A stretch of 64,000 nucleotides of DNA from Sclerodactyla briareus (lineage: Eukaryota; Echinodermata; Holothuroidea; Dendrochirotida; Sclerodactylidae): assembly GCA_026419785.1 (NCBI GenBank), contig JAODTK010000400.1, positions 1-64,000 of the forward strand. Direction: 5' to 3'. The notes below the pieces were generated by a model. That model ran no database searches and was not told where the DNA came from. It saw only the letters and a list, made by a program, of their open reading frames with translations. This document shows positions 15,180-56,300 of the stretch, piece by piece (the stretch's first letter is position 1; each line of letters opens with the position of its first letter). The position numbers and the translations under genes were made by a program.

Positions 15180-17090
15180 CATTGAAAACTATCTGGGCAG
15201 AGAACCAAAAATAATGGGTTCTTGTCCTCCCCTAAGAAAGCTACACACCAACTACAGCTTGATCGGACCAACTGTTCTGGACTGTATCGTGTTCAAAAGA
15301 TTTCACACTTTGCCCTTGGTGGCCTCAGATGACATTTGCCTGACCCCAAAACCTAAGGGATCATGTGTACTAAGTACTAATTATGGGGAACACACATACC
15401 AAGTATGATCTTCATCCTATGCAGGTGGGGTCGAGGTAGTTTGTTTACAAGCCAAAATTGGCCAAAACCATCAATTTTGACAATTTCCTAATTCTCCCAA
15501 AAGGTCCCCCCGACACACCAAAAATATAGGTTTTTTGTACTCCCCATAAGAAAGCACTTACACACCAAAGTTGCAGCTTGAATATCGGACAACTGTTCTG
15601 GACTTATCATGTTTACAACATTTCAGACTTTTTGAACCTCTGTGTGACCTCAGATGAGACATTTGACCTACCCCAAAACAATGGGTCCTGTACTAATTAT
15701 GGGGACACACATACCAATAGAGCTTCAATCCAGGCGGTTGGGGTCGAGTTGGTTTGTTTACAAGCCAAAATTGGCCAAAACATCAATTTTTGACATTTCC
15801 TAATTCTCCCAAAAGGTCCCCCAAACAACACCAAAAGTAATTGGGTTCTTGTACTCTCCATAAGAAAAGCTACACACCAAATTTCAGCATAATCGGACCA
15901 ACTGTTCTGGACTTATCATGTTTACAACGATTTCAGACTTTGACCTCTGGTGACCTCAGATGACATTGACTGACCCAAAACAAGTAGGGATCATGTACTA
16001 ATTATGGGGAACACACATACCAAGTATGAGCTCAATCCATCCAGGTGGGTCGAGTTATTTTGTTTACAAGCCAAAATTGGCCAAAAATCAAGCAAGTTTT
16101 GACACTTTCCTAATTTCTCCCAAAAGGTCCCCCAAACAACACCAAAAATAATAGGGTTCTTGTACTCCTCATAAGAAAGCTACACACCAAATTTCAGCAT
16201 GATCGGACCAACTGTTCTGGACTTATCATGTTTACAACGATTTCAGACTTTGACCTCTGGTGACCTCAGATGACATTGACTGACCCCAAAACAGTAGGGA
16301 TCATGTACTAATTATGGGGAACACACATACCAAGTATGAGCTCAATCCATCCAGGTGGGGTCGAGTTAGTTTGTTTACAAGCCAAAATTGGCCAAAACAT
16401 CAATTTTTGACAATTTCCTAATTCTCCCAAAAGGTCCCCCAAACAACACCAAAAATAATAGGGTTCTTGTACTCCTCATAAGAAAGCTACACACCAAATT
16501 TCAGCATAATCGGACCAACTGTTTTGGAGTTATTGTGTTTACAAGGATTTCAGACTTTGACCTCTGGTGACCTTAGATGACCGGTGACCTGACCCCAAAA
16601 CGATAGGGATCATGTACTAATTATGGGGAACACACATACCAAGTATGAGCTCAATCCATCCAGGTGGGGTCGAGTTATGGTGTTTACAAGCAAAACGTCA
16701 CGCACATACATACATACACACACACACACATACCTGTGTAGGGGGCCTAACGGGGACACACAAACGGGACATTGATCTTTCCCCTATGGAAATGGGGACA
16801 TCAGTGCAAAACCTACAGAGGGGTACCCCTACCACTACAAGTATCATTTTTAAGCAGTTTAAGGGAAACATAGGAACCGGGGATATCCCCCATTCCGTTT
16901 TTTTGTGGGGCGTTTTCCTATGGAAACGGGGACAAACCAAACGGGGATATCCCCGGTTTGCGGCGTAACCCCAGTTTACGTGAAAAGACTCCCGTGTGTT
17001 CCCCGTTTTACTGGATCGACAAATGACACACCACACATACATACTAACATGACTACATAGATTCCTCGACTTTTGTCAAGGATCAAAAAA
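15180..17090 (+). repeat. Family A element with ~310-bp internal tandem units
   Basis: At least five head-to-tail units of about 305-315 bp. Each carries 'cctaattctcccaaaaggtc', 'aagctacacaccaaatttcagc', 'cggaccaactgttctggac', 'gacctctggtgacctcagat' and 'tatggggaacacacatacc'. The array ends in an AC/CATA microsatellite (16,700-16,735), is interrupted by a small inverted-repeat insertion, and resumes with a tail hairpin at about 17,062-17,083 ('cctcgacttttgtcaagg'). Other copies lie at 20.8, 25.5/35.4 and 47.3 kb. The design of tandem core, microsatellite and terminal hairpin resembles pearl or HINE elements linked to Helentrons; that link is inference. Confidence 0.75.
16749..17007. mobile_element. 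Small inverted-repeat (MITE-like) insertion in the family A tail
   Basis: A ~259-bp segment begins 'aacggggacacacaaacggg' and ends with the imperfect inverted complement ('cccgtgtgttccccgtt'). It interrupts the microsatellite tail of the family A element: AC-rich sequence stands on both sides. The interior repeats 'atggaaacgggga'-like phrases several times. No ORF. Superfamily not assigned and no target duplication could be fixed. Confidence 0.5.
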
Positions 17091-17584
17091 TATGTCCTCG
17101 TCAAGCTCATTCACCTGCTCTTTTTCATTTTTATGGTATACTTGCCGAGCACATTAAACCTATTCAAGGCCCGGCAAGAGTTGACCCTGTCTGTGCAGCA
17201 ATTGTGCAGATAGCTGGAATACGAGTTTGGTAGCATGGAAGGCAATAACAAGAATCATTATCGCTGATTCGTTGAGAAATAGCTACACAGTGTACCGCTT
17301 TTTTCCCCCTTTGGGGGGGGAACAAAAAAATAGGAATAGTGTGGGACCGAAGTAGATAGCATATGGGCAGCTGGTTTGTTATCTCCACTCATCAATGCTC
17401 ATGTGGAGTACCAAACAGTTACTAGGGTCCACCTCTCAAAGTCCTTTTCAAATATGCATATATAAAGGCCAGGAATAAAAATTGGACTGAGTTGTACGAT
17501 TCTCCAGCCACTTGACCATACCAACCAAACCTGGCAGAAATTAGAAATCGCCCCGACTACACCATAAATTGAAGAGGTCCTTAC

Positions 17585-17750
17585 CGAGCTGGCAGAGCAA
17601 ATGGACCGTTCCGCTGTCTGGCAAGTGGCCGGGTCAAGAGTGACCTTGAACTTTGGAGGCAGACGGGCGACCTCTCCTTGAACGATGTCCGGCACACCGC
17701 TGGAAGGCGCGTCATCGATGGGCGCCTTCTTCAGAATTGGTGCAGTGAAG
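17585..17750 (-). CDS. MED15: MED15 exon 11, conserved C-terminal region
   Basis: The acceptor 'ttgtcattcag' ends at 17,751 and the donor 'gtaagg' begins at 17,584. The exon joins exon 10 in phase (AG + C gives Ser) and reads 'SFTAPILKKAPIDD', then 'VPDIVQGEVARLPPKFKV' and 'TLDPATCQ'. This parallels vertebrate MED15 'ITAPVV...IPSVLQGEVARLDPKFLV...LDPSHC'. It is the strongest single piece of evidence for the gene. Near the end the frame breaks by one base: the other frame gives 'VHLLCQL', matching vertebrate 'VHLICKL'. The break lies around 'cggaacggtcc'. The next conserved stretch, about 30 residues, was not found before exon 12. Confidence 0.9.
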
Positions 17751-18149
17751 CTGAATGACAAGGCGATAGGTAATCATTTGATTTGATTATCTACAAGATT
17801 AGGAATCTGAGACAGACAGACAGATAGATCTGTCTGTCTGCAGATAGATATATGGATACAAACTGACACCAGCACATCATGTACATTATGCTCGTTCAGT
17901 GATGCCTGTCAGCATTTTTTGTTGTGACGTCTAGTTCTGCTTTCGGCTATGCTGCAGTTTAGTTGAGGCTGCTGCAGTTTGCTGCGACCTGACCTTGACC
18001 TCTAAAGGGCAACTGCAGTGTCAACTATAAAGAGGATATCAGAGCTATCAGAATATAGGATGATACACATAGGCATGAGTTGAGCACCACCAACTTCTGA
18101 ATCTTTCATGGGTCCTTGAAATGCAGGTGGGGGGCTGCAAATGGCTCAC

Positions 18150-18999: not shown

Positions 19000-20700
19000 G
19001 GTAAAAGAACAAATCTAATCACTTGTCGCAGAATGATTAATGAAAGGAATAGCCTCCCTGTGTTTAGTCGTAGAGTGTCATTGCTCTTGAGAACAGGCTT
19101 GATGTGTTTTTCGGCAGTTGTGGAGAGTTCTTCGAGTTCTGTTGCTCTTCTTCTCGGGTTGTCATGGTTCCAGGGTCGTTTAAAGGGCTCAGTTCCCACT
19201 AACTAAACTAAACTTGTGGCTACTTACACATGACCTCCCCATACATATGATAAGACATACATCGCAACATTTGAAAAGTTCTCCTTTAAATGTCCCTGAA
19301 AATCAAAGGACTAACGAAAAAAGAGATCTCTCATACAACAGTCCCAGAACTTTACTTTAACACAATAGGTGTCTAGGATGAGATATGGGTTTTCAACAAA
19401 TTTTGTTTCCTCTCCGTCGAGTCTCAATGCCCCGAAAAGCTAGAGGGATCACGCCACGTACTAGGAGGAGCAAAGGTCGACGGACCACAGAGTTCCTATG
19501 GACGAGTGCTCATCCAGGCTGGTATCGGCGCAGGTCAGAGGTTTCCACGTAAGAGGCGATATTGGTGAGGCAAAACACCAACAAGATACTAAATACACTG
19601 TTACTAAAATTTGGAAAACGGATCCCCTCTCTCTAATGATTAGGAGGGCCGTAAATGGGGTTGAGTGGTTCAAGCAGGGGGGGAGTAATCCATGACTTTA
19701 ATTGTATATAGCGACAAGTCGCCTATAAGTTTTGTTCTACTTCAACTTTATCGTAACCGACACTGGTAAAAATAATTATACAAGAAGGGGAGTGAAGTTG
19801 GAACATACAAAATGACACACGGCTGCACAGATACACTGAGTCGAGGAACTAGTACTAGGGGAAACCCACCTGTGATGTCGATTTATATTATTAGGCAATG
19901 TATCACTCTCTAACCATGAACATAAAGGAGATGGCAAGTGGCTAGTACTAGGAATTTGTCATATTTCCTATCCCAAATGTTAGATGGTCTTGTCTTTAGG
20001 TGCACAACTGTCTGGAAGCCCTACCCACCCCCTCGCACCTGTTAGACTTGACCACTCAGGTGACAGTACCAGGGCAATCGCCAAAAAAAGTGTCTCACTG
20101 GTTGCGGGATCGATGGTTTTATGTATTATTACACAAACAACCAACTAGTTTATGCAGACCAGTGGTCATTCAAACGAACATCAACATATCCCATTATAAC
20201 ACAATAAACAAATTCCTACAACAATTCCTAAATTAACGGAACAATTAGTTTCTCTTAATACGAAGTCCCTTTATTGTTGTCTTCTTCATTCCCCCCATCA
20301 CTCTTCTCTCCGTTTCCATAAATTCCCAAATTTGAAAAAAAAGTTATGCCTCAGTAACTCATTCTGTGTGGAAAAATCCAAATGAGATGTTCTAAATTCC
20401 CTTAGAAGCCCGGGCTACCTTGCCTTTATTTAAATCAAAACTTTCCTTCATGATTCAGGCCTTGTTTCCAAGCAGCCAAGAATGCCTTACAGCCCCCACC
20501 CTTCCCCTGAATGCACAGCAAAACACCCTCTACCACCAACACCAAACAACCTATCCCCACGAGGCAGTCAAAGATGTCCCAAAATATTATCTATAGGAAA
20601 ACCTCCACATTGTATAATCTATTAATTGCCGATTTTGACATATAACTGACATTGTATAGCAACACAGTCACAGACCATTTCCTGGGCACGCGTACCCCAG
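19000..20700. other. MED15 intron, no exon recognised
   Basis: Conserved MED15 residues that should lie between exons 9 and 10 (the 'KQLSKYIEPLRRMI'-type segment in vertebrates) were looked for here on the minus strand and not found. Open frames at 18,832-19,206 and 19,498-19,695 (plus) show no recognisable domain. The piece around 19,030-19,130 faintly resembles the tail of a non-LTR reverse transcriptase ('INERNSLP'). Confidence 0.4.
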
Positions 20701-21060
20701 GTAAAGAAGAGAGCGGGAACGAACCAGATAGCCAAGAGGCTAGTGATCCTTGACTGCCGTCATAAACCTTCACTTAAACTTTGTGAACCATAGTTACCTT
20801 GACTGACTCCAAGGAAATGTGGATTACACACTGATAATATCGTGGGAAATTATAGATCATTTCAGGCAAGGCATAGTGTCCGTCAACTTTGACCTCTCCT
20901 GAGCCAGGATGTACCGCTGACCTGACAAAACAATAGGGACCATGTTTCTCATTAAGAGAACCCACATACCAAGCATGGACCATGAATTATGTGTTAACTA
21001 AGATAAAATTGGTATGGTGTCTGAAAAATCTAAATTTTCACAATGGCCACCTGGTTGTTC
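20700..21060 (+). repeat. Family A repeat, degraded copy
   Basis: Family A phrases recur: an 'aagaggctagtgatccttga' start, a short hairpin 'ccttgactgactccaagg', 'tgacctgacaaaacaatagg', 'gaacccacataccaagcatg' and 'ggccacctgg'. It is a shortened, decayed copy in a MED15 intron. Confidence 0.5.
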
Positions 21061-21649: not shown

Positions 21650-22215
21650 TCATTTGAACACTGAACAGCCACATCACGACCATACATACCGGGTGAGAGC
21701 TCTGATGGTTGAACAGCCCCCCAACTCACAGACCCAACATACTCGGTGAGAGCCTCGGATTGTTGAAAGCCAATAACAGACCCATACCATACTGGTGAGA
21801 GCTCTGATTGTTGACAGCCAATCACAGATCCATACAACTCGGTTGAGAGCTTTGCCAATTGTTGATCAGCCAATCAGCAGACCCATTAACATTACCTGGT
21901 GAGAGGTCTGATTGTTGAACAGACAAGCACAGACCATAAATACCCGGGTGAGAGATTCTGATTTGAATAGCCAATTCAACAGACCCATATCATACCTGGT
22001 GAGAGCTCTGTGTGGAACAGCCAATCACAGAACCAAGAAACATACCTGGTGAGAGCTCCGATTGTTTGAACAGCCAATCAACAGACCCATACATACCTGG
22101 TGAGAGCTCTGAGTGTTGAACAGCCAATCACAAGACCCCATACCATACCGGTGAGAGAGTACGAGTGTTGAAAGCCAAGCATAGACCCATTCATACCTGG
22201 TGAGAGGACTGATTG
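21650..22215. repeat. ~50-bp minisatellite, 11 units
   Basis: Eleven tandem units, each with 'cctggtgagagctctgattg' or a variant and then 'ttgaacagccaatcacagac'. 'Ggtgagag' occurs near 21,690, 21,747, 21,793, 21,841, 21,899, 21,948, 21,997, 22,047, 22,099, 22,150 and 22,199. Every unit contains a GT-GAGAG sequence like a splice donor on the plus strand, opposite to MED15. Confidence 0.9.
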
Positions 22216-22219
22216 TTCA

Positions 22220-23270
22220 ACTTGGAGGAGATGAGTAATCCTAGTAGTTGAGGTCGTTAGAGTAGTTACAGACTCAGTGAAGCTGGACTAGCTTGATCCT
22301 TCTGTTGGCCTTACTGAGGTTCACTGGCACAAAATGGATGATATACAAGAATGCACTCTCAATGAGAAATTGAAAACAGGAAAACAAATACCAGTTGGCT
22401 TTGTATGTCTCCAATTGTTACTGACTCTGCTACATGACTCTGTTATATACTGTCGGAATGATTTTCTGGGGATTGTGGCCTCATACCGGGTTTTTGCCAT
22501 TATGGAGAGAGTGCGAATTATGGATCAGTGCACACAACTGCTATAATGTCAACTGTGCGGTAGCACTTATGCCGTCGTGGTACAAAATGGATGGCACAAT
22601 GTGGAAAATAGTCTATTATAGTTTTTTGGCAATGCAGGTGCAGGGGCAATGTTTGACTTTGTTTCCCAATTTTCTGGCAGAGGCGCAGTCAACTGTAAAA
22701 ACAACAATTAAGAACATCATTCGCCTCACATCAACACAAACCCAATTATGCCGATCTATAATGATAACGCTAAAGAAGCCATGTTATCGTGAATTGATCG
22801 TGTGGTGTGATCACTGTCAAATTCATCATTATATCGGAAAAATTATGTTACAGTGGGTGTGTTTTTCGTTTGTTGTGATCAGGATAATTTTTGCTGGAGA
22901 CTCAAATGCAAAAGGGCAGTGATCGGTTATCAGCTGTTGGTTGTCAAGGGGGAATCATTTTGTTATACAGAACATACGTGCCAGCAGTGGGGGCCCTGGG
23001 GGGGCCTAACATAGTCAGTCTATGGGACTGATAGCTCTGTTAGATGATTGTTGTTGGTAATGGCGTCACCTGACTCGATAGCCAATCAGGTCCCTCTATT
23101 GGAGTTACGTCGAATAACGTAATTATCTAACAGTAACAATCGACTGAAACGCACCCAGTGTCACACAGACCAAGTAACAGCCATGGTGTGGAGGAAGGGG
23201 ATAGAAGAGCTGGGTGTGCATGAATGGGGAAGGGGAGGGGGTGGATGCATGAATGGGGAGGGGGCGTGGC
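22220..23270. other. MED15 intron with an unrecognised 162-codon frame
   Basis: A plus-strand open frame (22,434-22,922) is Trp/Cys/Ile-rich, with no domain I know and no splice context. I treat it as chance. Nothing else is seen apart from G-rich simple sequence at 23,190-23,270. Confidence 0.4.
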
Positions 23271-24344: not shown

Positions 24345-24580
24345 GTTCCCCAATTAGTATATTGGGGGGTGGGTAGGAACATGGGCCACAATTAGCATAT
24401 GGGTAGGTGGAAAATGGCCCAATTAGCTATGTAGGTGGAAAAATGGCACACTTAGCATATGGTTGGTAGGAAGCATGCGCACAATTATCTATGGCTAGTG
24501 GAACAATGGGCACAATTAGCATATAGTAGGTAGGAACAATGGCACAATTACATATAATAGGTAGGAACAATTGGCACAGG
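24345..24580. repeat. ~36-bp minisatellite, about 7 units
   Basis: Tandem units built on 'cacaattagcatatgg' followed by 'gtaggtggaaaaatggg' or 'gtaggaacaatgg', with some drift between units. Confidence 0.85.
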
Positions 24581-25504: not shown

Positions 25505-26280
25505 CCAGAAATTCAGAAAGCCAAAAGGCTTAGTGATTCCTTGACTCTTCCAGACAACCTATAGTAGACTAAGAACAAATGGGAGATTGTACAGCTCATT
25601 GGGGAACCCAACGTCTGACATACTCTTGTCAGAGAGCTACCCTAATTTCAAGGACTTCAGACTTTGACCTCTGGTGACCCTAGATGACCTCTACCTGACA
25701 CAGTGTTCCTGTGCTCCCCTAAAAGGCTACACACCATCTTTGAACCCGATCGGAACCAACCATTCTGGACCTATATCGTGTCACAAGGTTTTCAGACTTC
25801 GACCTCTGGGACCGGGGGTCAGATGTAACCTCTGACCTGCCCCCAAACAATAGGTTATGTACTCATCATGGGGAACACACTACCAAGTGTGAGTTTTCTC
25901 TATCCAGGTGGGGTCGAGTAATCGTTTTCACAAGCAAAATTGGCCCAATTATTGACTTTTCACAATTTCCCTATTTTTGAACAAAATTGACCCCCGACCT
26001 ATCCCCAAAACAATAGGGTTCCTGTACTCCCCATAAGGAAAGCTACACACTCAAATTTGGCCCCGCTCAGAACCAAAAAAAACCCATTCTGGAACTTATC
26101 ATGTTCACAAGGTTTGTTTGGACTTGACCTCTGGTGACCTCAGATGACTCTGACCTGACCTCAAAACAATGGGGTTCATGTACTCATCATGGGGAACACA
26201 CATACCAAGTAGGAGCTTCATCCATCAGGGTCGATTATCGTGTTCACAAGCCAAAATGCCAAATTATTGATTCCATGAAT
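25505..26280 (+). repeat. Family A element, left part, split by the DIRS insertion
   Basis: A family A start ('gccaaaaggcttagtgattc', then 'cttgactcttccagacaacc') is followed by two tandem units with 'gacctctggtgacc', 'ccccaaacaatagg', 'tggggaacacac' and 'tacacac'. It breaks off at 'aaattattgattccatgaat', inside a unit. The missing continuation of that unit ('tatttttgccaaaattcac') resumes at about 35,351, beyond the DIRS element. It is therefore one copy cut in two. Confidence 0.75.
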
Positions 26281-26297
26281 TAACCCCCCTTCGGTAA

Positions 26298-26470
26298 GGG
26301 GGGCTACTTACGGGGGCAACTAACTTTCTGGCTTACTACAAATTGCATTTTAAGCCAAACGGCCGCTCAGACACCCTATACCACTAAAAAGAGTTAAGCA
26401 CAGCGCTGGTACGGAAGCAGCCGTAACTTACTTGGTGCGGCAACCGACGCTGTACTAGCATTCCAACTAG
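26298..26470 (+). repeat. DIRS left inverted terminal repeat
   Basis: Reads 'cttactacaaattgcatt', 'accctataccactaaaaag', 'gttaagcacagcgctgg' and 'cttggtgcggcaaccgacg'. The same phrases in the same order are found on the minus strand at the right end. Just outside, a GC-rich hairpin 'ccccccttcggtaagggggg' lies at the very tip (about 26,284-26,303). Confidence 0.85.
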
Positions 26471-26540
26471 CACACCCGAGGTCGCCCTGCTTTAGTGGGG
26501 AGGAAACGGGCGTGGTCCGAATGTAAGTTGCCCCTCTTAG

Positions 26541-26605
26541 TAGTCCCCCTCAACGAAGGGGGGTAACTTACTTCAGAGCACTTACCTTCTGGACTACAAA
26601 TTGTC
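26541..26605 (+). repeat. DIRS internal complementary region (circle-junction copy)
   Basis: Contains 'gaaggggggtaacttacttc' and 'gcacttaccttctggactac'. It matches the outermost bases of the right end (minus strand 'acttacttcagggcacttgc' and onward) next to a second copy of the tip hairpin. Such an internal copy of the termini defines DIRS replication through a circular intermediate. Confidence 0.7.
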
Positions 26606-26959
26606 AGACCTCCCACCGCAAGGAGGTGGGTAGCCGGGGAGCGAATTAATCCAACTAGATTAGACCACTCACCGTAAGAAAGACGTCTGAGTACCACCTC
26701 CGTAGTCAAACCAGACTCCCGACTCCAGCAGGCATCATCCGTCACAAGGGCGGATTGTCCCCGATCCACCACACGCCCTACACAACACGCTCACAAGCGA
26801 GGGGGGCGCGCGTGGGGAATGGGAGGGGCGCAAAAGCCACGCTTACCCAATAGGGCCAGTGGCCCCCCCCGGCGCAAGGGGTCCCCCTGCCAGACGTCGT
26901 AACCCGAGACGGCGACCACAAAAAAAGACGAGCCGCGACCCCCGTGCGGGAGTAAGCGG

Positions 26960-27560
26960 TGGCCATCAAGTATCACTCCGCAGGGGTTCCGAAGGCCTGA
27001 AGCGTAAAGGTATTCTGAGATTTCATCCTTCCATCCCGCAGCCTGAGAATCTCCTAGGTACCCCTTTATAGAGCTGGAGAGGAGGAAATTCGACCCCCCT
27101 CACATCGTGAGCTTCGGCGGTCGAGACGGACTATCCCCCGGGTCCGCCGCCCGACAGGATCGCGCGTGACGATCCAGCGAGCATCGTATCCTTGGAGGCG
27201 CATGTATGAGGTCGCTGCGGTAAAAAACATCGACGTGAACAACCACGGAGGGGACGGGTCCGATCCAGGTAAACCCGAAGGGCCCGAACCGTACACCCAC
27301 CCTCACCCTCCACTCCTGAGAACTCCCCCAATGCCACGATGAAATCGCAGCCGGAGAAAATTGACCAGCCGTGTTTTAGTGAGAACGTCGGATCCGGAAC
27401 CAGGCGGACCCCGTTAGGCCCAAACGCATATGCCCCGGGAGGGTAGACAAAGCATTGCAAGGCACTACGGGCGAGCGATGCCTGCAGCAAGAGGACGCTG
27501 TCTAACTGACACTGGGCAAGACATCCGCTATCGTTCTAAGGCAGGCTCCGTCTTTGTATC
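26960..27560 (-). pseudogene. DIRS tyrosine recombinase, broken
   Basis: The recombinase catalyses integration of the circular DNA copy in this retrotransposon class. Pieces in different frames are 'GPNGVRLVPDPTFSLK' (about 27,410), 'VRALRVYLDRTRPLRG' (about 27,270), 'AHDVRG' (about 27,110; the His-x-x-Arg motif) and 'AGWKDEISEYLYASGL' (about 27,020; region of the catalytic Tyr). Frame shifts separate them and several stops lie between, so no intact protein is encoded. The order and spacing fit the C-terminal domain of DIRS polyproteins. Confidence 0.78.
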
Positions 27561-27626
27561 AGCAGGACGTCCCCCATGTCCCAGGGCGGAACTAGAGTGC
27601 GAACTCTAGCCCGATCCAAGAACATG

Positions 27627-28672
27627 TTACGAAGGGGAGGTCAAGTGGCTTTCGAAGAAACACCGTTGAGCCATCCCCGAATCCGCTATGTATAGACCGC
27701 AACAGGGAGTGGAGTAAACCCCGGCTCTGTTCACTTGCCGCCTAAAGGAACACGTAGAGGAAGGAAACTCGGCACCTCCCGAAGGGCCATGGACGGAGAA
27801 ACATAGCCGATCAGCACACCACCCTCGGTGCAATCCTAGTCGCGAATCATACAGCGTAGGGTGGGGGGAATCTCTCCAACCCGGGCCGACCCAGGCAGCC
27901 TCCTCCGAAAGGCCCGACGCCTGGAGGGAATCCCTGCCACGGGCCACGCAATAGGGCGAGAGCCTCTGGATGCGAGGGCGCGTTCCCAGACCGGAAAGCA
28001 CCAGGAGGTCCGGGGAAGAGACAGGGTAGAATTCGGGGCGCCCCCGCCGGCAATGCCAGAAGTGGCCGGAACCATGCGGGGGTGGCCCAAAATGCGCATC
28101 AGGAGGACCCAAACAGGGTCCCTGCCACCCGCGACCACCCTGTCGACTAGAACTGAACGGCGGGGAAAGGCGTAAGCGTGAAAAAGGCCCAATCCTGGGC
28201 CAGAGCATCGACCGCCCAGGCGCCCCTCGAAGGGGACTTGTGTGCAGAAGAGAGGGTAGTTTGCGTTAGAGGCGAGCGAACAGGTCACCTCCGGTACGGA
28301 CAAAACGACTTCGAACAACGCGTGACACAAACTCTGACGGGAAGAGACCACTCCGTTCGGAGCCTGAGTTGATGCGCGAGAGAGCGGTCCGCGATGGAGT
28401 TCCTCGGGAAAGGAAGGTGGAACCGCATTGGAAGGCGCACTCCTCGTGTAGCGCGCGGCACCCACTGGAAACAGGTACCAGGTCACGGACCAGAGCCTCC
28501 GGGAACGAGTCCCGCCATGCCTGTTTATTATGATCACCGCCGTGGGTACTGGTCGCAAAGGATCAGTACGAGGGCGGCCCGCCACTCTCGGATGCAGTAA
28601 TTTCAAAGCAGGACAAAACCCGCCAGCAACTCGAGGGAACGTTATGGGGTCCCCCATAACTCTGATTCCCAC
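27627..28672 (-). pseudogene. DIRS RNase H and connecting region, broken
   Basis: Two overlapping frames (27,836-28,672 and 27,627-28,208) carry the DIRS segment downstream of RT. 'ALKLLHPRVAGRP', 'NRHGGTRSRRLWSVTWYLF' and 'NAVPPSFPEELHRGPLSRAS' belong to RNase H and the region after it. Then comes the connector with 'PNSTLSLPRTSWCFP' and 'GIPSRRRAFRRRLPGSA', which leads into the recombinase. RNase H removes RNA from the RNA-DNA hybrid. The reading frame changes around 28,150 and again before the recombinase. Confidence 0.75.
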
Positions 28673-29875
28673 ACGTGAGCCAACGCGAAAAATGCGAGAG
28701 CAGTGAGCCCCCAGCCCTCCAGCGAGGTGTCCGACGAGGCAAAAAGTTGGAAGGGAAGGCGGGAACCGTACCCCTGCATGACGTTGTCCCGTTCAAGCAC
28801 CACTCTGTTATTCGGGTCAGGTGAGGCTGCCACGGCACTGGCGACGACAGATCCCGAGACGACGGGAGAAAAAAACGCAAGAGTTGGATCCTGGAGGGGG
28901 CGGCATGTACATGACAGAATAGGGAACCAGTACAATAGGCTCGGCATGAAGCCGAGGAGCACCAGCAAGCCCGCGCAGGGAGAGTTCTGCCTTGAAGCAG
29001 CCGGACACCCGGCTTGCGGGCCCATATCCCCAGGGTGGGGGTGGCCACCCGTCCGCTAAATCGATCTGCGCACAGATAAATGATCTGGGGGATGGTTGCA
29101 GGTAGACTTGGCAAGTTGACAAAAGCCATCCCAGGATCGTGCAAGCCCCAGAACCGTTGAGGGTGCTCTTCTGAACCTCGCCGCTGAGTCCCCCACAATA
29201 AGCCAGTCGTCCAGATAAGTGAGATCTGGACCCCCTGACGACGCAGGCCACCATGGCCCTCGTGACCGTGTAAACACACGGGGGCCGTCGACAACCCAAA
29301 CGAGAGACTGGTGAAATCGGTAGGAGGAAGCGCGGTAGCGGAAGCATAGGAGAAGAAGGAATCCTCCCGCATGACGGGAATGCCAGTATATGCATCCACT
29401 AGGTCCACCGACGTTGCCAGAGACCTCTCCGCAGGGTTGGAAAATCACGCTAGTGTTTCCATGCGGAGTGGGGTGGGCGGACGAACGGTTGAGAGGACGC
29501 AGGTTTCAATATGAAACGGCGCCAGAAACCGTCCCTCTTGGGGTCAGAAAGAAGGACGCCACAAACCGGGGCAATTCCTGTGGGAGGGAGAGGAGTAATG
29601 GACCATCTTGGCCAAGGAGGTTCGATCCCCTCTCCAACGCAGACGCCTGGGAGCGTCCCGTTGGGACCGCCATAGCCCAAAATCGCCCGGGCGTGGGGGA
29701 GGCGCCGTAAACTACAGGCGATACCCCTGGGAGAGCGCGGCCAGGACCACCGTCCTGATGGTGTGACAGTGGCCACCCCCCGCAAAGTCCGGGGACGACC
29801 CCAACAGGTGGGTCCGCTGGGGGGTTCTGGGACAGGGGGCCGGTAGTCACTTACCACCGGGCTGGCTGGAGGCAC
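28673..29875 (-). pseudogene. DIRS reverse transcriptase, broken
   Basis: RT motifs in order on the minus strand: 'SFFLTPRGTVSG' (about 29,540), 'DLVDAYTGIPV' (about 29,390), 'SYRFHQSLVWVVDGPRVFTR' (about 29,300), and 'YLDDWLIVGDS' with the catalytic Asp pair (about 29,210). The start of RNase H ('SDTSLEGWG', about 28,730) follows. These are the marks of DIRS or related tyrosine-recombinase elements rather than LTR or LINE types. At least four frame changes are needed to follow them. Confidence 0.85.
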
Positions 29876-30034
29876 GCCTCCTCGACACAGCGGGAGAATG
29901 ACGTGCCCACCCTGGGCTTGCGGGACGCTTGACCCCCCACAGGGTTCCCCTTCTGCTTACGGGGGTGGGGGCACCCCCGCCCTCCGGGAGGGCCAAGACG
30001 CGCTGAGCGCTCCCCCGGAGCGCGGCGGCTCGGA

Positions 30035-31760: not shown

Positions 31761-32019
31761 AGGACCTCTGATGCTTGCGGGAGTGCGCTGGCTCGAGACA
31801 TTGTACTAAGCTCTTCGTCTTACAGATCTTTAACCAATGCAAGGCATTCATACTCACGATAAAATGATGGGCATGGATAGGTGCGATCTCTGTCATGAGA
31901 TGTTTTTTTGAGCGAGTAACTGAGGTCATTATATCCCCCAGCCTTGGGTCATGGATACCCTTTCCATTTAAAATGAGATTGACAGTCCCGCTTTCCCCGC
32001 ATTTGATAAATCAAAAAAA

Positions 32020-35190: not shown

Positions 35191-35350
35191 AATGATAGTA
35201 CAGCGTCGGTGCCGCACCAAGCTATTACGAAGCTGCGTGTCGGTACGCGCTGTGCTTACTCTTTTTTAGTGGTATAGTTGGTGTTAAGCAGTCCGTTTGT
35301 CCGCCATGCAATTTGTAGTAAGTCCAGAAGGCAAGTGCCCTGAAGTAAGT
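35190..35350 (-). repeat. DIRS right inverted terminal repeat
   Basis: Read on the minus strand it gives 'cttctggacttactacaaat', 'ctataccactaaaaaagagt', 'aagcacagcgcgtac' and 'cttggtgcggcaccgacgct', the same order as the left end. About 160 bp, with scattered indels. Confidence 0.85.
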
Positions 35351-36010
35351 TTCGTATTTTTGCCAAAATTCACAGCCCGACCTATACACAACATAGGTTC
35401 CATGTACTCCCCCTAAGAAAGCTACACACCAAATTTGGCCACCGATCAGACCAAGCATTCGGACTTATCGTGTTCACAATGTTTTTTGAACTTTGACCTC
35501 TGGTGACCTCAAGATGCTCTCTGACCCCTGACCCCAGAACAACGGGGATCCTGTACGCATCATGGGAACCATACCAGTATTAGCTTCCTCCTCCCAGGTC
35601 TGGTCGAGTATCGTCGTCCAAGCCAAATTGGCCAATTATTGACTTCTCATAAATTTCCATATTTTTGAACCAAAATTCACCCCGGACCTATACCACAACA
35701 ATGGGGTTCCTGTACTCCCCATAGGAGAAGCTACACACCAAATTTGCCCCCTCAGAACCCCAACCATTCTGTACTTATCATGTTTCCAAGGTTTTTGGAC
35801 TTTGACTTTCTGGTGGACCTCAGACCTGACCCCAAAACAATGGGGTTCATGTACCAATCAGGGGAAACACACATACAAGTGAGCTTCATCCATCCACGTG
35901 TCGTCGAGTTATGGGTTCACATTCAGCCAGTGTCACACACATACATACACACATACAACACACTATCAGATTGCATAGATTCCTCTTACTTCATCAGGGG
36001 GGGATAAAAA
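35351..36010 (+). repeat. Family A element, right part, with microsatellite and tail
   Basis: It resumes with 'tatttttgccaaaattcac', continues through two more units ('gacctctggtgacctcaaga', 'ccaaacaatgg'-type phrases), and ends with a CACACATACA microsatellite (about 35,935-35,965). The family A tail 'gcatagattcctcttacttc' and 'atcaggggg' follows. Together with 25,505-26,280 it makes one full element. Confidence 0.75.
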
Positions 36011-41569: not shown

Positions 41570-42310
41570 ATCTAACGAGTGTTGCGAATTTGCATAAATT
41601 ATGCAATTAGACACAGTATTTGACTGCAGTGACCACTCTCCCCTCTAGTATCGGATAGAGTAGACCATATCCACAGTTTCATTAATTTTAGGCAAACATA
41701 CCAAATCTGCATGAACTATGAAAATTGACACATTAAAGACACGGCAAGGAAAACCTAACACTCACATTTTAAATTACCCAGGAGCGATGGCAGACAAATG
41801 CCACCAGGTCTCGTGGAATCCGACAAATTTCCCAAATTTGCATAAGTCATGCAATCATAATTAAATTAACTCAAGTGACTCTGAGTTCATGTATAAATAC
41901 CTCAGGGCCTGAAGGTAGGACCTATTCAAACCAAGTTTCATGAGGAATGACATACTGACAGTTGCATAAATCAGCAAGGAGCATTTCCAGGCTTGAAAAT
42001 CTTGATAGTTCATCATACTAACGACCAGTAACCTCTGTGCCAAATAACATCAATAAAGCTCCTACGGTTCATCTGCAATCTGGCTACAAGCTCAAACAAA
42101 AAAAGTAAAAAAAAGTAGGCTAATCACTATATTTTTTCTTTATAATTATTGACATCGTGTAAAATCTATCAGATCAGTTCACCTAACCCAGATGCCCAAA
42201 AGTTTCATTGAAATTGGATCACGTTTGGAGGAATCCTGCAAATGGAAAAGTGTGTGACATACCTGTACACAAAACACACGCCACTCGCTAAATCTCTCCC
42301 TGAATTTCAT
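41570..42310 (+). repeat. Family B repeat, copy 1
   Basis: Phrases shared with the copies at 53.3 and 55.4 kb are 'aaatttgcataa', 'atgcaattagacac', 'gtgactctgagttcatg', 'cggttcatctgcaatctggc' and 'gtgtgacatac', with 'ctaaatctctccctgaattt' at the end. It ends with a short AC-rich stretch and a decayed terminal hairpin. Non-coding. Confidence 0.7.
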
Positions 42311-43110: not shown

Positions 43111-43919
43111 GGGGTGGCCAACAAGAAGTGAGAGAGATGAAAGGAGTAGTTACCAACTGTGAGTGTTAGTTGTGTCACAGTGGAAAGAAAAGGGTTGGAT
43201 AGCATATCAATAATGCCACATAGGAACATATTTAAAAACAAAAAGGGGGTTTGGAGCAGTAGCGTTTTTCCCCCACATATCTAACTCTGTCATAGCCAAA
43301 ATCCTGCAGGGGCTTTCAATGCCTACTTCGTTTATGAGGATGTTTCAAGGCGGACCGGTATTCGTTTCAGCGCGGTCGGGAGAGATCCGGAATGCGGATG
43401 GAAGGTCGAATAATGAATAAAATAGACCAATCAGCTATTGCGAAGTTCGCTCGAGCGATCGCACTTCGTCCCTGTCTGCTGCCAATCTCATCCCAGGTCA
43501 GAGTGGCGACCCTTGAGGAATCGGTTTGTTGTACTTGTACGCGTAGGTACTACTTTCACCCCCCGTGGCAGCAACCTCACTCCTCGGGGTTGTCGGAGAG
43601 CGTAACAGTTTCTATAATAAGGTTAATACATGTGCTCTGTTATCACTCAATGAAACAGCACGGGGCAATTCCATGTAAAAGAGGACATGACCATCAAATT
43701 TTAAACTAGAGAACCAGTGGTTCAGTAGCTCAACCACGGACAAATTTTCAATATTATGAACTAGTATGATGTGTTATTGGAGGTCTGCATTGATATCAGC
43801 TTATATATCCTGACCTTTGTGACAATGAGAGGAGCCATCATGAAGATAATAAACTTCATACGTGAGAGGAAATACAATATTTTTTCACACAATGGCCCGT
43901 AGGGCTCCTTTCAAATGAC

Positions 43920-44350
43920 GCTGACCTGACTTGGGGTGGTCAAAGGTCCCCAGGAAGTAATAATGAAATTATGTCCACCTCGGTCAATGTTCATCCAAAG
44001 CATGAACATTTAAGGGCCAAAAGCATGCAAATTGCATATTGTTCTACAATCTGAACACAATTGACTACTACCCCCTTCAATGACCTTTCCCTCCAAATTC
44101 CTGTACAATGCATAGGTACCCACTAATCAATATTTTACATGGTCATGTATCATGGCAATCCAACCTAATCGGCAGTTGACTATGACCACGGTCATAAAAT
44201 TGTGACAACGTTTGGTCAAGATCCATTGAAGCGGACGAACATGGATTTGGTGGTCAAGCAAGCAAAAGTAAATACAGACTCGATGGATAGAGAGATAGAA
44301 TGACATGGGCATTACAATAGCCCAACCAGCCAGATGGATGGCTAATAAAA
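43920..44350 (+). repeat. Family C repeat, copy 1
   Basis: It has 'tgacctgacttgg', 'tgacctttccctcc', 'catggtcatgtatcatggca' and 'ttggtcaagatccattgaag'. It ends with a GATA/GAGA run, 'gaatgacatgggcattacaa' and a hairpin 'tagcccaaccagcc...ggatggcta'. The same tail stands at 44,880-45,020 and 49,345-49,430. Confidence 0.65.
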
Positions 44351-44443
44351 GGGGGTCCAAAAATTCCAGCAAGCGAGCCGTCTGCTCGGAACCAAGTCAA
44401 TAGACTTTGGCCACTACTTATCTAAATTACTGAGAAAAAAATC

Positions 44444-44707
44444 ATGAGCGATGACAGCCACCTTTCAACATTATTTTCAATACTGCTGGTTATTCCCAGG
44501 AGGGAGGATTGCTGCTCCTCCCGCCAGAGAATCGAAACTCTTCCTCATTCGTTTCCACAGCGTATCAAACTTTATAATAGTGGACTTCCAGCGTTAAGAG
44601 CCCCCGCGTCCTGGTCCCCATTGGTTTTCCCCTCTTGCCATTGTCTTTGTAGGACTGTTTTCCCGTGTGTTGAGATTGTTCTATGTTTTCAGTCTATAAC
44701 TGTTTGA
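44444..44707 (+). pseudogene. Non-LTR retrotransposon RT tail, relic
   Basis: Reads 'RRIKLYNSGLPAL'-type sequence ('PHSFPQRIKLYNSGLPALRA'), then Pro/Ser/Cys-rich sequence. The 'F.P..I.LWN.LP' type motif closes many non-LTR reverse transcriptases. Short, isolated and decayed. Confidence 0.3.
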
Positions 44708-44879
44708 TGTCTATTATTTGATACTACTCATGTTTCGTGCCATGCTTTGGGGCCTGTTTTCATATGTTTGAAATTATCTTATGGTCTTATTGTTACAACC
44801 GTTTGACACTGTTTTATCATGTTTACTGTTTCTGTTTTATTTTAATGTTTGTACCTAATCTAATCTAAAAATTTGTATG

Positions 44880-44974
<95 letters not shown>

Positions 44975-45020
44975 ATGACATGGGCATCACAAACTTCAAC
45001 TAATCTTCAGTGGTTTGAGC
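44880..45020 (+). repeat. GACA/GATA microsatellite with family C tail
   Basis: About 11 GACA units followed by about 10 GATA units, then 'gaatgacatgggcatcacaa' and 'ggtttgagctaaaa' as in the family C 3' end. The body upstream is not family C, so this is a truncated copy or a microsatellite that grew from its tail. Confidence 0.75.
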
Positions 45021-45840
45021 TAAAAACTGTCCAAAATCAATCGACTTGGTATCGAATTGAAGCTAAAAGTCTGAATTTTCCAGCAATAATGATTTTTTCG
45101 ATGAAGAAGCAACCAGTATTTGTTTTACTCATAATTGATTAGTGGATGTCACAATTTTCATCCAAGAAACATAGCATCATAAAAAGCTTTCAAGCAGCAG
45201 CTGCAATAGAATTATCTTTTCATTCAAACCGTATCATAGTGTCACTAGGTCTAGGTATCACATATAAAAAACAAATTATGAATACGCAAATGTCTTCCAC
45301 TACATGATCAACTAATTAAGTTATAGTTAGAATATGTCACAGCATTACCCTAGATATGAAATTTTTTTCAATTTGTGTATGATATACATATTGGAGGGAA
45401 TATTTTTTTTTTAAATGCAAATCACATCAACTGAGGCCTATTACTTCCATGCACTAAATTATAACTCCCATCTGGCATCCCCAACCAGCTACATTACATC
45501 CCAGAAGCTGGATAGGGTGCTATGATCTATACAATGCACACTTCTAATAATGTACACTTTGTACTTTGTACATTAATAGTATTACGTTTTAAAAATGGTA
45601 GAGTATAATCAGTGGGGGTGGAATATGCATGGTTCCGCGAGGTCCTTTAGTGAACCCTCCCTGGCCTCAGGGTGTTAATATTCACATGACCGCTATATCC
45701 AAGGTATGTCATCATATACATCCTTTCCTTTTTCCACGGCGCACTCGTCACTGACGTTGGTGACTGGGAATGGCACTCAAATCAAGTGATGCTCGTTGGG
45801 TGTGTCGTGAGGTCACCGTTGCGAATGTTTCGACAGTGCG
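45021..45840. other. MED15 intron, nothing recognised
   Basis: AT-rich sequence with no exon or named repeat. Confidence 0.45.
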
Positions 45841-47314: not shown

Positions 47315-48345
47315 ACCAGAAAGCCCCAGAGGCTTATTGAATCCTGACTGCCCTAGACCTTTAACTTAAAGCTTGTTAACCTCAGAGGAACTCCGACCTG
47401 ACTCCCGGTTGGATAACAGATGATAATAGTGTGGATATTACGTATAGATACTTTCCAGAGAGGAATAGCATAGCATCAGATTGACCTCTCAGAGGCCAGA
47501 TGACCGGCTGACCGACCCCAAAACAATAGGGACCTGTACTCTTTAAGGTGAAACCAATACCAAGGCATGAGTTACAATGTTACCAAAAGCCTGGTTGAAT
47601 TGGGCCGTGTATGAGAAAGGAAACAACATTTTCCACACAATCCAATCCCTCCCCAAAAATGACTTCCTGTCTACACAAACATTAAGGAGTTATTGTACTC
47701 CATAAGAAAGCGCATACCAGTACTAACAATTTGAAACCTGATCAGACCAGGCGTTCAGGACTTTGACTTTGACTTTTAATGACCTTAGATGACCTCTGAC
47801 CTGACTCTTAACAATAGGGATATTGGTAGTCAGTATGAGGAACCCACATACGAAGTCAGTATGAGCTCATCCATCCGGTGGGGGGGCGGGTTTGCTCTTC
47901 ACAAGCTAAAATGCCCCAAAATATCAATTTTCACCAATTTCCCATTCCAGCCTCCAAAAAATGACTGTGGCCTGCACCAAAAATAATAGGGTGCTTTGTA
48001 GTTGTACTCCCCCATACGAAGCACACACCAAATTTCAACTTGATAGACCAAGCCGTCTGGACTTATCAGTGTTACAAGGCTTCCCAGACTTTGACCTCGC
48101 TGTTGACCGGGTGCGGAGATGCTGGGGGGGGAGATGACCCCTGACCGCTCAGTACCCCCAAACAATAGGGATTATGTAATCATTATGGGGAACCCACATA
48201 CCAGTATGGGCTTCATCATTCACCCATCCGTGGTGTCGAGTATGCTCGTTCACAAGCCAGGCACACACAAACCATACACGCATCCAATACCACCTGTCAT
48301 GACTGCATCGATTCCCCTGACTGAAGTCAAGGAATTAAAAAAACA
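47315..48345 (+). repeat. Family A element, copy with two units
   Basis: It starts 'ccagaggcttattgaatcct', then 'gactgccctagacctttaac'. Two units carry 'ttgacttttaatgacc', 'tgacctgactcttaacaata', 'ccaaaaaatgactg', 'tgacctcgctgttg' and 'atggggaacccacatacc'. It ends 'catgactgcatcgattcc' and 'cctgactgaagtcaagg', a clear terminal hairpin at about 48,317-48,334. The short AC/CATA run (48,262-48,290) stands just before it. Confidence 0.75.
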
Positions 48346-48930: not shown

Positions 48931-49430
48931 TGTTTGAGTATGACCTTCATTCATCCAGGTGGGGTCAGGATGGTATTTATAAGCTGAGAAATACCCTTGA
49001 AATATCAGATTTTTCGTTCTTTCTTCCAGAAAGAATTTCCCCCTGAACCGCAAAATCAATGGGGCTCCTGTACGCTTCATAAGTTATTGTGTTTATAGGC
49101 TGATATTACATGATGTCTCTATTTTTTTTAACCAAAAAATTACCCACTATTCCACAAATCAATAGGGACGTTACTCTCCCGAGGAGAGATCCACACAAAA
49201 GTGGTTCATTAGGCCCCTACAATGACCTCTGACCTTAAAATTTACATGGTTCAGAAAACTTCAATGTCGGTGACCATTATGCTCAAGTTTGACCAAGATC
49301 TCAAGGAGCGAACAACAGATGGAGCCAATAAAGTGATTGTGAACAAATAGACATACAGATAGGTAGACATCCTGACATGCTGATTACAATAGCTCAACCA
49401 ATCATAGCTGGTATGAGCTAAAAGTAAATT
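48931..49430 (+). repeat. Family A fragment followed by family C copy 3
   Basis: 48,935-49,090 carries 'catccaggtggggtcaggat' and 'tcaatggggctcctgtacgc' from family A. 49,190-49,430 then has 'acaatgacctctgacctta', 'tttgaccaagatctcaagga', an ACA/GATA run and the family C tail 'attacaatagctcaacc...ggtatgagctaaaa'. The tail hairpin (TAGCTCA / TGAGCTA) is perfect here. Confidence 0.6.
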
Positions 49431-52900: not shown

Positions 52901-53330
52901 TTTTCCAGTCACCCGTTCTTCGATATCTTGCAATATGTTCACCAGTCTCACCCAAGAGGGCCAGATATCATCAGCTTATTGTTGGTCCATGGTGAAGAAG
53001 TGTTGGTGGTTATTCTGATTGCCAATAGTCATGATCTAACTGAAATGGCAGGATAACTGCATCGATGTCATTTCCATCCGATTTAATGTCATTTCCATCC
53101 GAGTTGGCTAGTAAGTTATACAAGGTATCGCCCCCAGTGTCTCGCATGGTTGGGCGATCAATGATCCAATGTTACTTTCTAATTTAGTCACCATGCAAAA
53201 AATTACAGGCATTCCATGTGTCCCGCTTTCGTATTAGCATTACCCGAAACAGCCCGTACTAATCAGTGAACCATTTTTCAAATTCGAAAGGACTGATTAT
53301 TGACAATGTCTACAGAGGAGTAAAAGTTTG
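49901..53330. other. MED15 intron with several unexplained frames
   Basis: Plus frames at 50,751-51,074 (107 codons) and 52,182-52,616 (144 codons) are longer than average for this AT content but match no family I know. They lack clear splice context and face opposite frames of similar length. A large imperfect inverted repeat occupies about 51,255-51,385. No MED15 exon was seen. Confidence 0.35.
51255..51385. repeat. Imperfect inverted repeat, possible small MITE
   Basis: The left arm, 'aattcccacccggacaatcc', and the right arm, 'gggaattgtccgggtggtgg', are imperfect inverted complements about 90 bp apart, with extra 'gggtgggaatt' repeats in the right arm. A folded stem can be drawn. Confidence 0.5.
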
Positions 53331-54085
53331 GTGGAAATGTAACTACATGCCTAAATTTTGCAAATTGAGGCAATTTACCAAGTTCAAGAAAAAATCCGGC
53401 AAACTTCAAAATTATGCATAAATTACGCCAATTAGACATGTTGAAGGACCTCCAGTGACCCTGAATCCATGATAAAAAAAATTGGAACTCAGGTTAACCA
53501 TACCCACCAGGTTTCAGTGAATAATACAAGCAACTGGAAGATTTTTCGCATCAAATTACGCCAAATTAGGTACCCTGAATGACCTCATTGACCCCAAATC
53601 TTGTTAGAAGGTTTTGGAGACTGGAGGTAGAAGACATATTCAACAAGTGTTTTGTGAAATCCCCGCAAACTTTTGAATTTATCACACATAATTATGCAAA
53701 TAGATTGACTTAATACCATATTTTTACGCTGAAAAAATCTAATCAGTTCATCTACCTTAATATCCTGCCTCTATGTGCCAACCATCACCATAGCCTACTA
53801 AACGGTTCATCTGTAATCTTGCTAACGAGCCTAACAATAAATTACAATGAAATAGCTAATACCTCACTTAATTATGACTTTTGTGCCCAAAAATCTATCA
53901 TATATCGTGTTCCCCAACCCCGAAGCTACCTTGAAAATTTTGTCGCAATTGCACTTACCGTTCGAAAGATATCCTGCTAACGAGAAAGTGTGACACACAC
54001 ACACACACACACACACACACAACATACACACACGCCATAGGGACCACTAAGTCTCCTCCTGAATTTCATTCAGGGGAGACAAAAA
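53330..54085 (+). repeat. Family B repeat, copy 2 (best tail)
   Basis: Carries 'caattagacatgttgaagga', 'cctccagtgaccctgaatcc', 'ctactaaacggttcatctg' and 'aagatatcctgctaacgag'. A pure AC run (53,995-54,020) and 'cgccatagggaccactaagt' follow. The terminal hairpin 'cctgaatttcattcagg' is a perfect 7-bp stem with a TTC loop, at about 54,058-54,074. Confidence 0.75.
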
Positions 54086-54299: not shown

Positions 54300-55020
54300 G
54301 TTGATATGCTCTCTTGTGCTCTTGACCCACAAGCAACTTGGTCTTGAAGCAAATTCATTCAAGGCACTCCTCCCAATCATCCTCTCACAAATCGTCAACG
54401 AATCTATCAGCACAGGTGTTTCCCCCACTGCACTCAGACAGGTCATAATCACTCCAATAATAGAGAAGCGGAATCCCTTATCACACTCAACGGCCAGAAC
54501 AAAAACTACAGACTGGACCCTGTAACAAAAATACAATTCCCCTCCCAAAGTTATCGGGGAAGCAAGCAATGAAGAAATTTTACTGATAATTCTGAAAATC
54601 TCCATGAACCATAGTAATCAGCCTCCCGGTCACTACACAGCCAGGAATCAGCACTCCTAAAAGTCACCGCAAGAGGACATCGAGCAGGAAGGGAGTTTCC
54701 TTGTCATGCTCGATTTGAAGGCCGCATTCCATATGGTCAGCCATCCCATCCTGCTTGACTTGTCTTAGCTATGCCATCGGGATTTCTCGGATCCCCACTT
54801 GGGTGGTTGAGTCCTTCGATTGGATCGAGTGACCTGTATTTTTTATCAATGGACTCGTTCTGAAAATGCCTAGCTAGAGTTGGTGTTACCCAGGATCGAG
54901 TGTAGGTCCACAGGACATTTTTATGTACACCTTACCAATAAGTAGTAACATCATTTAAGGCAAATGACCTGAAAAGTTTCATGTTATGCAGATAAGACAG
55001 AGGCCAGTCTAATGTGGGTC
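54300..55020 (+). pseudogene. CR1/L2-like non-LTR reverse transcriptase, broken
   Basis: Plus-strand pieces in shifting frames match reverse-transcriptase blocks in the right order: 'LLPIILSQIVNESISTG' (about 54,370), 'VMLDLKAAFHMVSHPILL' (about 54,710), 'GSSVGPQDIFMYTLP' (about 54,895; block B) and 'CYADK' (about 54,985; normally YADD). The 'VLLDLSAAFDTVDH' pattern is typical of CR1, L2 and Rex groups. With the catalytic second Asp changed and stops between the blocks, it is inactive. It lies in a MED15 intron in antisense to the gene. Confidence 0.7.
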
Positions 55021-55434
55021 ACTGGCAATTAGTTGGCTTCAACCATCCTGTTGGACAGTGTTAGGGGTACAGGTTGCGGTGAAAGTTGGAAGGGGGAGGG
55101 GTGTACTATATCCCTCTCAATCAAAAATATAGGGGGGATGGTGTCCTCGTGCCCCCCCCTTCTCTCCCTCTCATGATTGCTACCCTTGATGGCAAGGTCA
55201 GTCTCATGTAGGTCACAGTCAAGTAGTTGATTTCATCCATCCTGATCTCAGAGAAGTTGGAAGAGGGGCGACTTGCTAGTTAACAGTTGAAAACACCAGA
55301 ATCTAGAAGAACCATAGAGGTTGCATCATAATTTGTCAGTTTTGCTAGTGTATGAAAGAGTCAGTAGCCAGTCCCACATTCAAATTTGTGAGGACTGAAT
55401 GATGTCCATGTTAGCAGTACCAAGTGTTTTGTGA

Positions 55435-56300
55435 ATACATGTGACAAAGTGGAGAATTTGAGTTAATTAGGAAAATTAGAGGCATGATTTGACGTTTTGT
55501 GACTCCTTCTCTAAACTTGAGATACTTCAGGACCAAGGGGATCACATCCACCCACCACTGAAATTCAAGAAACCTCATAAAACTATGCATACCGTATTCA
55601 TTCAGCTAGCGCCCATCTCCCGAGTGACGCCCACCCAACTTTTTTGCAATGCAGGTCGTTACCGACCTAGTCAAGTGAGTTAGGCCTGGGAACGGCAACA
55701 ATACAGTAAAAGTGTGAGTTAGGCTATGCTATACTTCATCTTTACTGGGACGTCAGCGACACGTCAAAGTTGAAGAGTTTACTGAAGAAGTGAGCCGAGG
55801 TTACTATGGGAAGTACCTCAGTTCGGGTATTTGTTAGATCATGAATAGGCTGTGTGAAAGTTGGGCGAATACGATGTGTAGGCCTAAAAGAAATTACTCT
55901 CGTAAGCGCCTATTCTGAAACTTTGCAAGTGCCCTGGGCGCTTAGTGGAATAATACGGTACATTATGCAAACCAAAACACTAAATTACCTAAACTCACAT
56001 TCTAAATTAGGCCGCATTGACCAAGTTTATTATGAATCAGACCACAAAAATCCCAGATTTATACAATCATGCAAATGAATGACCTTGATTGACCGTGATA
56101 TGTGCCAAACCACATCAGCAAGGCTTCTATAGTTTGTAACTTGCCAACAAGCTGAAACGATACAAAAACATCAGAATCGGCCTCACCGTTTCAGAAAAAT
56201 CCTGCTAACAGGGGAGCGTGACAATGTGACATACAAACGCACACACACACCAACCAAGTTATTGCTAAGTCTCTCCCTAAACTTCAATCAGGGGGACAAA
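55435..56300 (+). repeat. Family B repeat, copy 3
   Basis: Shares 'gagttaattaggaaaattag', 'gtttattatgaatcagacca', 'gccaacaagctgaaacgata' and 'gaaaaatcctgctaac' with the other copies. It ends in ACACAC, 'gctaagtctctccctaaact' and 'tcaatcagggggacaaac'. A stretch of other sequence (about 55,570-55,960) is inserted inside it. Confidence 0.6.

Follow-up and report, generated by a model that had tools for sequence, protein, structure and literature searches.

Three repeat families of Sclerodactyla briareus with the end structure of non-autonomous Helentron-like transposons

Three families of non-coding repeats, here designated A, B and C, occur in a 64,000-nucleotide window of Sclerodactyla briareus (contig JAODTK010000400.1, C396:1-64000) and are dispersed in the genome of the same animal, where one end plan is common to all three. 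By 'the window' we mean this whole stretch; further copies were sought throughout the genome to which it belongs, which comprises 319.5 Mb in 3171 contigs. Window coordinates are given on the plus strand, whereas the orientation appropriate to a Helentron is minus; 'tail' denotes the end that carries a microsatellite and a hairpin, and 'head' the opposite end. The hairpin is formed by a subterminal inverted repeat (subTIR) and a complementary inverted repeat (IR) beside it. The copies recognized in the window are these:

47322..48336, plus strand: family A, copy A3, the most complete of its family in the window; palindrome and subTIR from 47322, hairpin (subTIR and IR) at 48316-48332
15204..16733, plus strand: family A, copy A1; 310-bp tandem array and the start of the microsatellite; a head was looked for and none was found
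17026..17083, plus strand: family A, remaining tail of A1; microsatellite remnant and hairpin, with about 290 bp of other sequence between array and tail
25519..26272, plus strand: family A, copy A2, part one; intact head AGCCAAAAGGCTTAGTGATTCCTTGACT
35346..36006, plus strand: family A, copy A2, part two; microsatellite and degraded hairpin; an insert of some 9 kb separates it from part one
20730..21047, plus strand: family A, partial copy, head side
53122..54080, plus strand: family B, copy B1, the most complete of its family in the window; opens with palindrome and subTIR; (AC)n at 53993-54033, hairpin at 54051-54080
56171..56292, plus strand: family B, copy B2, diverged, tail; CA microsatellite, hairpin at 56276-56292
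20073..20643, plus strand: family B, partial copy with head
41587..42127, plus strand: family B-like fragments
43709..45022, plus strand: family C; head palindrome GAACCAGTGGTTC, subTIR, GACA/GATA microsatellite at 44880-44974, tail
49357..49420, plus strand: family C, second, poor copy, tail; hairpin at 49390-49420; a head was looked for and none was found
55592..55658, minus strand: copy of another repeat, short and dispersed, which is an empty site of one family B insertion (below)

The exact hairpin of family B has 429 matches in the genome, 216 on one strand and 213 on the other, while the tail of family A has 26 at up to 2 mismatches and that of family C 14 at up to 3 mismatches, these tallies being lower bounds where the families have diverged; control patterns made by reading the three tails backwards gave 0 genome matches each. 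We fetched 23 copies of B, 25 of A and 12 of C, chosen non-randomly from the listed matches, which with the window copies made a set of 66 sequences (25 B, 28 A and 13 C). Both ends could be placed in 39 of the 66, the head or the tail pattern giving no match in the other 27, and removal of one copy without upstream flank and of three of four co-amplified copies left 35 (14 A, 14 B and 7 C). Insertion and deletion differences among copies are abundant, which fits either old copies or a noisy assembly. Within the window, all 16 intervals matching A, B or C lie on the plus strand, against the 216/213 division of family B genome-wide.

At the tail, the order on the plus strand is microsatellite, spacer, hairpin and a run of A in all three families, as seen in 20 copies of B, 20 of A with three more in the window, and 12 of C with one more in the window. 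An initial annotation, made from the window's letters, had drawn attention to three hairpins and to a tail plan shared by otherwise different repeats; the hairpins were located (A at 48316-48332, B at 54058-54074, C at 49390-49420, where dinucleotide shuffling gives expectations of 0.16, 0.30 and 0.00 respectively), and the plan recurs in copies genome-wide. For family C, its hairpin is real, but the GACA/GATA tract (44880-44974) to which it had joined this hairpin belongs to a different copy. The consensus tail of A consists of a CA-rich microsatellite, CTGTCATGACTGCATA, GATTCCTTGACTGAAGTCAAGGAATC and AAAAA; that of B of (AC)n, CGCCATAGTGACCACTAA, GTCTCTTCCTGAATTTCATTCAGGCGAGAC and AAAAA; and that of C of (GATA)n, a spacer, a hairpin (fully paired in three genome matches, as TAGCTCAAACCAGCATAGCTGGTTTGAGCTA) and AAAA. 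The microsatellites are of AC (B), ACAT/ACAC and GATA/GACA (C) types, and are eroded or absent in some copies (for instance L010, L012 and L024 of B; L064, L067 and the window tail of C). Folded as single-stranded DNA, the tail hairpins of A, B and C reach -9.4, -8.0 and -15.0 kcal/mol (z -5.3, -5.5 and -8.5). Copies are similar up to and including the A-run and diverge beyond it; the run is exactly 5 long in 17 of the 35 copies and at least 3 in 30.

Similarity among copies begins abruptly at the far side too in each family, and the collection of copies that the initial annotation had advised for the definition of exact ends has given sharp boundaries at both sides. The head of each family comprises a small palindrome followed by a word of 10-12 bp that is reverse-complementary to the final arm of the family's own tail hairpin: AGCCaaaaGGCT TAGTG ATTCCTTGACT in A, AAGGCGATCGCC cccAGTG TCTCGCCTG in B and GCACCAATGGTGC TG TAGCTCAAACC in C, with the palindromes AGCC..GGCT, GGCGATCGCC and GCACC..GGTGC respectively. 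The head word lies 0-3 edits from the reverse complement of the tail arm (12 bp in A, 10 in B, 12 in C) in 35 of 35 copies, a count biased towards agreement because the patterns used to find heads included the subTIR, and the heads of other families stand at mean distances of 5.1, 3.9 and 5.1 edits (minimum 3, 3 and 4). The subTIR word of B is also visible in heads located by similarity alone. Inverted repeats of at least 5 bp stand beside subTIR-like words, tail arms included, at 14 of 46 sites in A (shuffle mean 1.3, maximum 4) and at 4 of 12 in B (mean 0.5, maximum 2), and a complementary IR beside one subTIR is present in all three consensus tail hairpins.

Insertion sites were approached by joining the two flanks of an element and searching the genome for the joined sequence; 28 junctions were prepared and 23 of them searched, 9 from B, 8 from A and 6 from C. 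Empty sites were found for four insertions, two of B (L028 and L017) and two of C (L056 and L066). That of L028 occurs at four places, namely window 55592-55658 and contigs C2618, C2378 and C329; ten places were reported for L017, of which five were fetched and aligned, and two each for L056 and L066. No spanning place was found in the genome for the other 7 B and the other 4 C junctions. At the 13 aligned places the insertion point lies within a brief stretch rich in A (in T on the opposite strand), and no target duplication is seen apart from As, whose number is uncertain: the filled site of L017 is some 4-5 As longer than the empty ones, as if A5 had arrived with the element, and that of L028 is longer by about one. 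At a place on C3072 the head pattern matched only loosely, and the alignment runs through as at the other empty sites. Among the 35 copies, the longest word common to the two 15-bp flanks averages 3.6 bp against 3.68 for shuffled pairs; flank direct repeats of at least 6 bp occur in 1 of 35 (shuffled mean 2.9) and of at least 7 bp in 0 of 35 (0.8), and duplications of the length typical of short interspersed elements (SINEs) are not seen. No target duplication is thus seen, in B and C by empty sites and in A by junction comparison only, and the insertion at T-runs without duplication that had been expected of all three families is borne out to the same extent.

Read on the minus strand, the order becomes T-run, subTIR of 10-14 bp, short loop, IR, spacer, microsatellite, a body in which tandem units may be present, second subTIR, palindrome and T-rich flank. 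In HINEs generally the subTIRs measure about 11-15 bp, and a microsatellite inward of the IR is usual without being required. This is the plan published for HINE and Cg_HINE elements in the structural descriptions of PMC4067079 and PMC7492417, the latter giving for Cg_HINE a 5' subTIR, a complementary IR and a microsatellite, then tandem repeats, then a 3' subTIR with a palindrome; hence the tail hairpin corresponds to the conventional 5' subTIR with its IR. The initial annotation had taken the hairpin for the 3' end and had overlooked the subTIR and palindrome of the far end. Its proposal of a HINE design is supported: the missing half is present in all three families, and most of the checks that it had suggested came out in its favour, the reversed orientation and the partner element being the reservations. 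We consider that A, B and C are non-autonomous Helentron-like rolling-circle transposons of the HINE/DINE-1 type, with a probability of roughly 85%. Their ends, paired subTIRs and A/T-run targets are observed, and the rolling-circle copying is inferred from structure, as no autonomous element with the same ends was found. By analogy with the superfamily, the Rep/helicase of an autonomous Helentron would act in trans and nick beside a T-run; one strand would then be copied with strand displacement until a stop at the 3' palindrome, and the copied strand would be joined into another T-run, carrying the microsatellite and tandem units along. The microsatellite, lying directly inward of the IR, travels with the element, and the families have accordingly dispersed microsatellites, family B at several hundred places.

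The nearest parallels are structural. As described in PMC7492417, Cg_HINE of the Pacific oyster shares the end plan, central tandem repeats, a T-rich target, the lack of duplication and the existence of several families unrelated in sequence, and differs in its microsatellites, those here being AC, ACAT/ACAC and GATA/GACA; the likeness is one of described structure. The same account reports that no link could be made between the oyster's autonomous elements and Cg_HINE, which is also the situation of A, B and C. DINE-1/INE-1 of Drosophila is characterized by 13-bp subTIRs, a partial IR by the 5' subTIR, a nearby microsatellite, central tandem repeats, a stem-loop near the 3' end and a T-rich target (PMC2374699, PMC4067079); its microsatellite is GTCY and its core, about 90 bp long, is conserved, and it resembles our families in structure. 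HINE-Mo of a predatory mite has subTIRs near both ends, a palindrome near the 3' end and a T-rich target left unmodified, although mite HINEs are described as being without an IR (PMC4067079). Pearl, a non-autonomous Helentron-type element of molluscs, has short central repeat arrays, with a unit of about 160 bp where that of family A measures 310 bp, each half some 155 bp, a comparison by description only (PMC7492417).

Several observations weigh against the Helentron-like reading. Beyond the bias in the head count given above, in A and B the largest own edit distance (3) equals the smallest foreign one (3), the count of inverted repeats beside subTIR-like words in C (5 of 35 sites) does not beat its control maximum (mean 1.3, maximum 5), and the head palindromes fold weakly (z -1.2 to -2.1). 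The 3' subTIR lies nearer the end here than in mite HINEs, for which 38-60 bp is stated (PMC4067079). No empty site was found in the genome for any of the 8 family A junctions searched, and flank direct repeats of at least 5 bp occur in 11 of 35 copies against a shuffled mean of 7.3, a small excess made up for the most part of A-rich words. Finally, a loose first-look search of the genome revealed no Rep inside the ends of A, B or C, and the Rep and PIF1 matches that it gave are few and fragmentary. If the assignment is correct, this is one more genome with several HINE-type families, unrelated in sequence, bearing microsatellites and tandem units, and it bears on the dispersal of microsatellites and on why microsatellite flanks recur in families. 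The finding is fairly ordinary and overturns no existing knowledge; the missing autonomous partner is its chief gap, and the exact ends now defined allow that partner to be sought directly.

The genome search for such a partner, which the initial annotation had predicted as an autonomous Rep/helicase element with the same ends, produced two fragmentary Rep loci of Helentron type and, being loose enough to have missed a partner, no element with those ends. Helitron_like_N (PF14214) gave 3 matches, at one locus on contig C2413 and one on C2926, which are divided between frames or interrupted by a stop, and PIF1 gave 1 match with two stops. The Rep motifs of the two loci, DSFVRIEFQQRGSPHAH and DYFYRVEFQQ*GSPHIH, are of the GSPHxH type, and an S between G and P in this motif is given as a sign of Helentrons in PMC4067079. 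The fragment on contig C2413, used as a query, finds only itself in the genome; at a distance of 1.2 kb from it, between C2413:104755 and approximately 108010 on the minus strand, stands a copy of family A some 3.2 kb long. An endonuclease-like frame near this fragment was considered as a Helentron endonuclease and dropped, there being a reverse transcriptase-like frame beyond it with the family A copy between; inspection by eye suggests a long interspersed element (LINE) split by A. Separately, an open frame at about 121.1-121.8 kb of C2926 (L034) resembles by eye a helicase of the parvovirus NS1 type.

A variant of rolling-circle transposition is raised by the closing bases. The CTRR of canonical Helitrons stands beside the palindrome in 9 of 21 copies of A and C taken together (5 of 14 in A, 4 of 7 in C) and in 0 of 14 copies of B, compared with 147 of 1750 random flank positions (8.4%), and the CTAG that closes family C is placed inside the element by the empty site of L066, with L056 agreeing less clearly. 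The lack of target duplication is a further point in common with canonical Helitrons, for which PMC4067079 describes a TC start, insertion between A and T and a palindrome some 11 bp short of the end; in our families, by contrast, the three consensus ends have no TC start but open with T-run, subTIR and IR, the targets are T-runs, and B lacks CTRR. It is conceivable, though on balance unlikely, that A and C combine a Helentron-type start (T-run, subTIR, IR and microsatellite) with a Helitron-type CTRR finish and were moved by a rolling-circle enzyme intermediate between the two, of which the fragmentary GSPHxH loci could be remains. An intermediate state of this kind is reported from an oomycete in PMC4067079.

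Cut-and-paste transposition is improbable as an explanation of the families. Under it, they would be miniature inverted-repeat transposable elements (MITEs) whose terminal inverted repeats are bound by a transposase and whose short duplications are hidden in A/T-runs; short inverted repeats do occur near both ends, a duplication of 1-2 bp could be masked by A/T-rich targets, and DINE-1 itself was formerly classed as a MITE according to PMC2374699. However, the head repeats are subterminal, with the palindrome outside the subTIR, the IR arm exists at one end alone, and the 13 aligned empty-site places show no duplication of several bases. A SINE-like origin, in which the 3' hairpin and A-tail served as template for a LINE reverse transcriptase, would account for the hairpin and the adjoining A-run at one end, but is highly improbable given that the run is short and mostly of exactly 5, where SINE tails are A-rich and vary in length, that target duplications are absent, that the far end is sharp with a complementary subTIR, and that Rfam at the thresholds used found no RNA family in the window. 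That the tail plan arose by chance, microsatellites being common and short hairpins arising easily, is scarcely credible and is refuted by the genome-wide copies with the same ends, the backwards patterns having no matches and heads and tails agreeing within families, even though a blind scan of the window found no excess. That scan, for a hairpin, an A-run and an upstream subTIR, gave 8 and 9 matches per strand, against 9 and 7 in reversed or complemented sequence and 3-9 in ten random models, and missed the copies known from the window; the plan is hence visible only by comparing copies.

The bodies of these Helentron-like families are less uniform than their ends. Tandem core units, already pointed out for family A, are confirmed as 310 bp repeated 4.8 times at 15204-16695, and the unit is itself duplicated, its two diverged halves of some 155 bp each scoring 66 against each other, where shuffles average 22.2 and 0 of 300 reach that score. 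In seven uncorrected body comparisons with 300 shuffles each, the supposed lack of relationship held for A-B and B-C, whose scores were reached by 138 and 37 of 300 shuffles, but not for A-C in the comparison of tails (42 against 21.7, 0 of 300). The A unit and C were not clearly above expectation (34 against 28.6, reached by 40 of 300), and neither the A and B units (63 of 300) nor the B unit and C (110 of 300) showed an excess. A core common to all three bodies was therefore rejected, only A-C and the halves of the A unit having beaten all 300 shuffles. TGACC[CT] words number 9.8 against 0.6 per kb on the two strands of A (flanks 1.7 and 0.6), 3.1 against 0.7 in B and 1.6 against 1.1 in C, counts that the tandem units make non-independent; we take the word to be the reverse complement of AGGTCA-like half-sites.

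Nesting connects two of the families. The C copy L066 is inserted in the A-run that ends an A-like tail, its two empty sites being that tail uninterrupted. A C-type subTIR word stands some 30 bp away from an A copy of 241-261 bp, and the two flanks of that A copy are found again at eight loci and at two others. At L054, L068, L069, L071 and other loci, a short A copy and a C-type subTIR have been amplified together with their flanks, as a composite of two families.

As for the remainder of the window, Pfam gave no match for eight of its frames at the thresholds used. The insert of about 9 kb that divides A2 (approximately 26283-35345) carries inverted repeats at its ends (26326-26463 and 35190-35329, 81% identical); its minus-strand frames look retroelement-like by eye, a DIRS-like nature being a guess, and Pfam found 0 families in six of its frames. 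Further tandem arrays lie at 11621-12052, 13159-13672, 21662-22221 and 24368-24578, with units of about 82, 72-80, 48-102 and 31 bp respectively.

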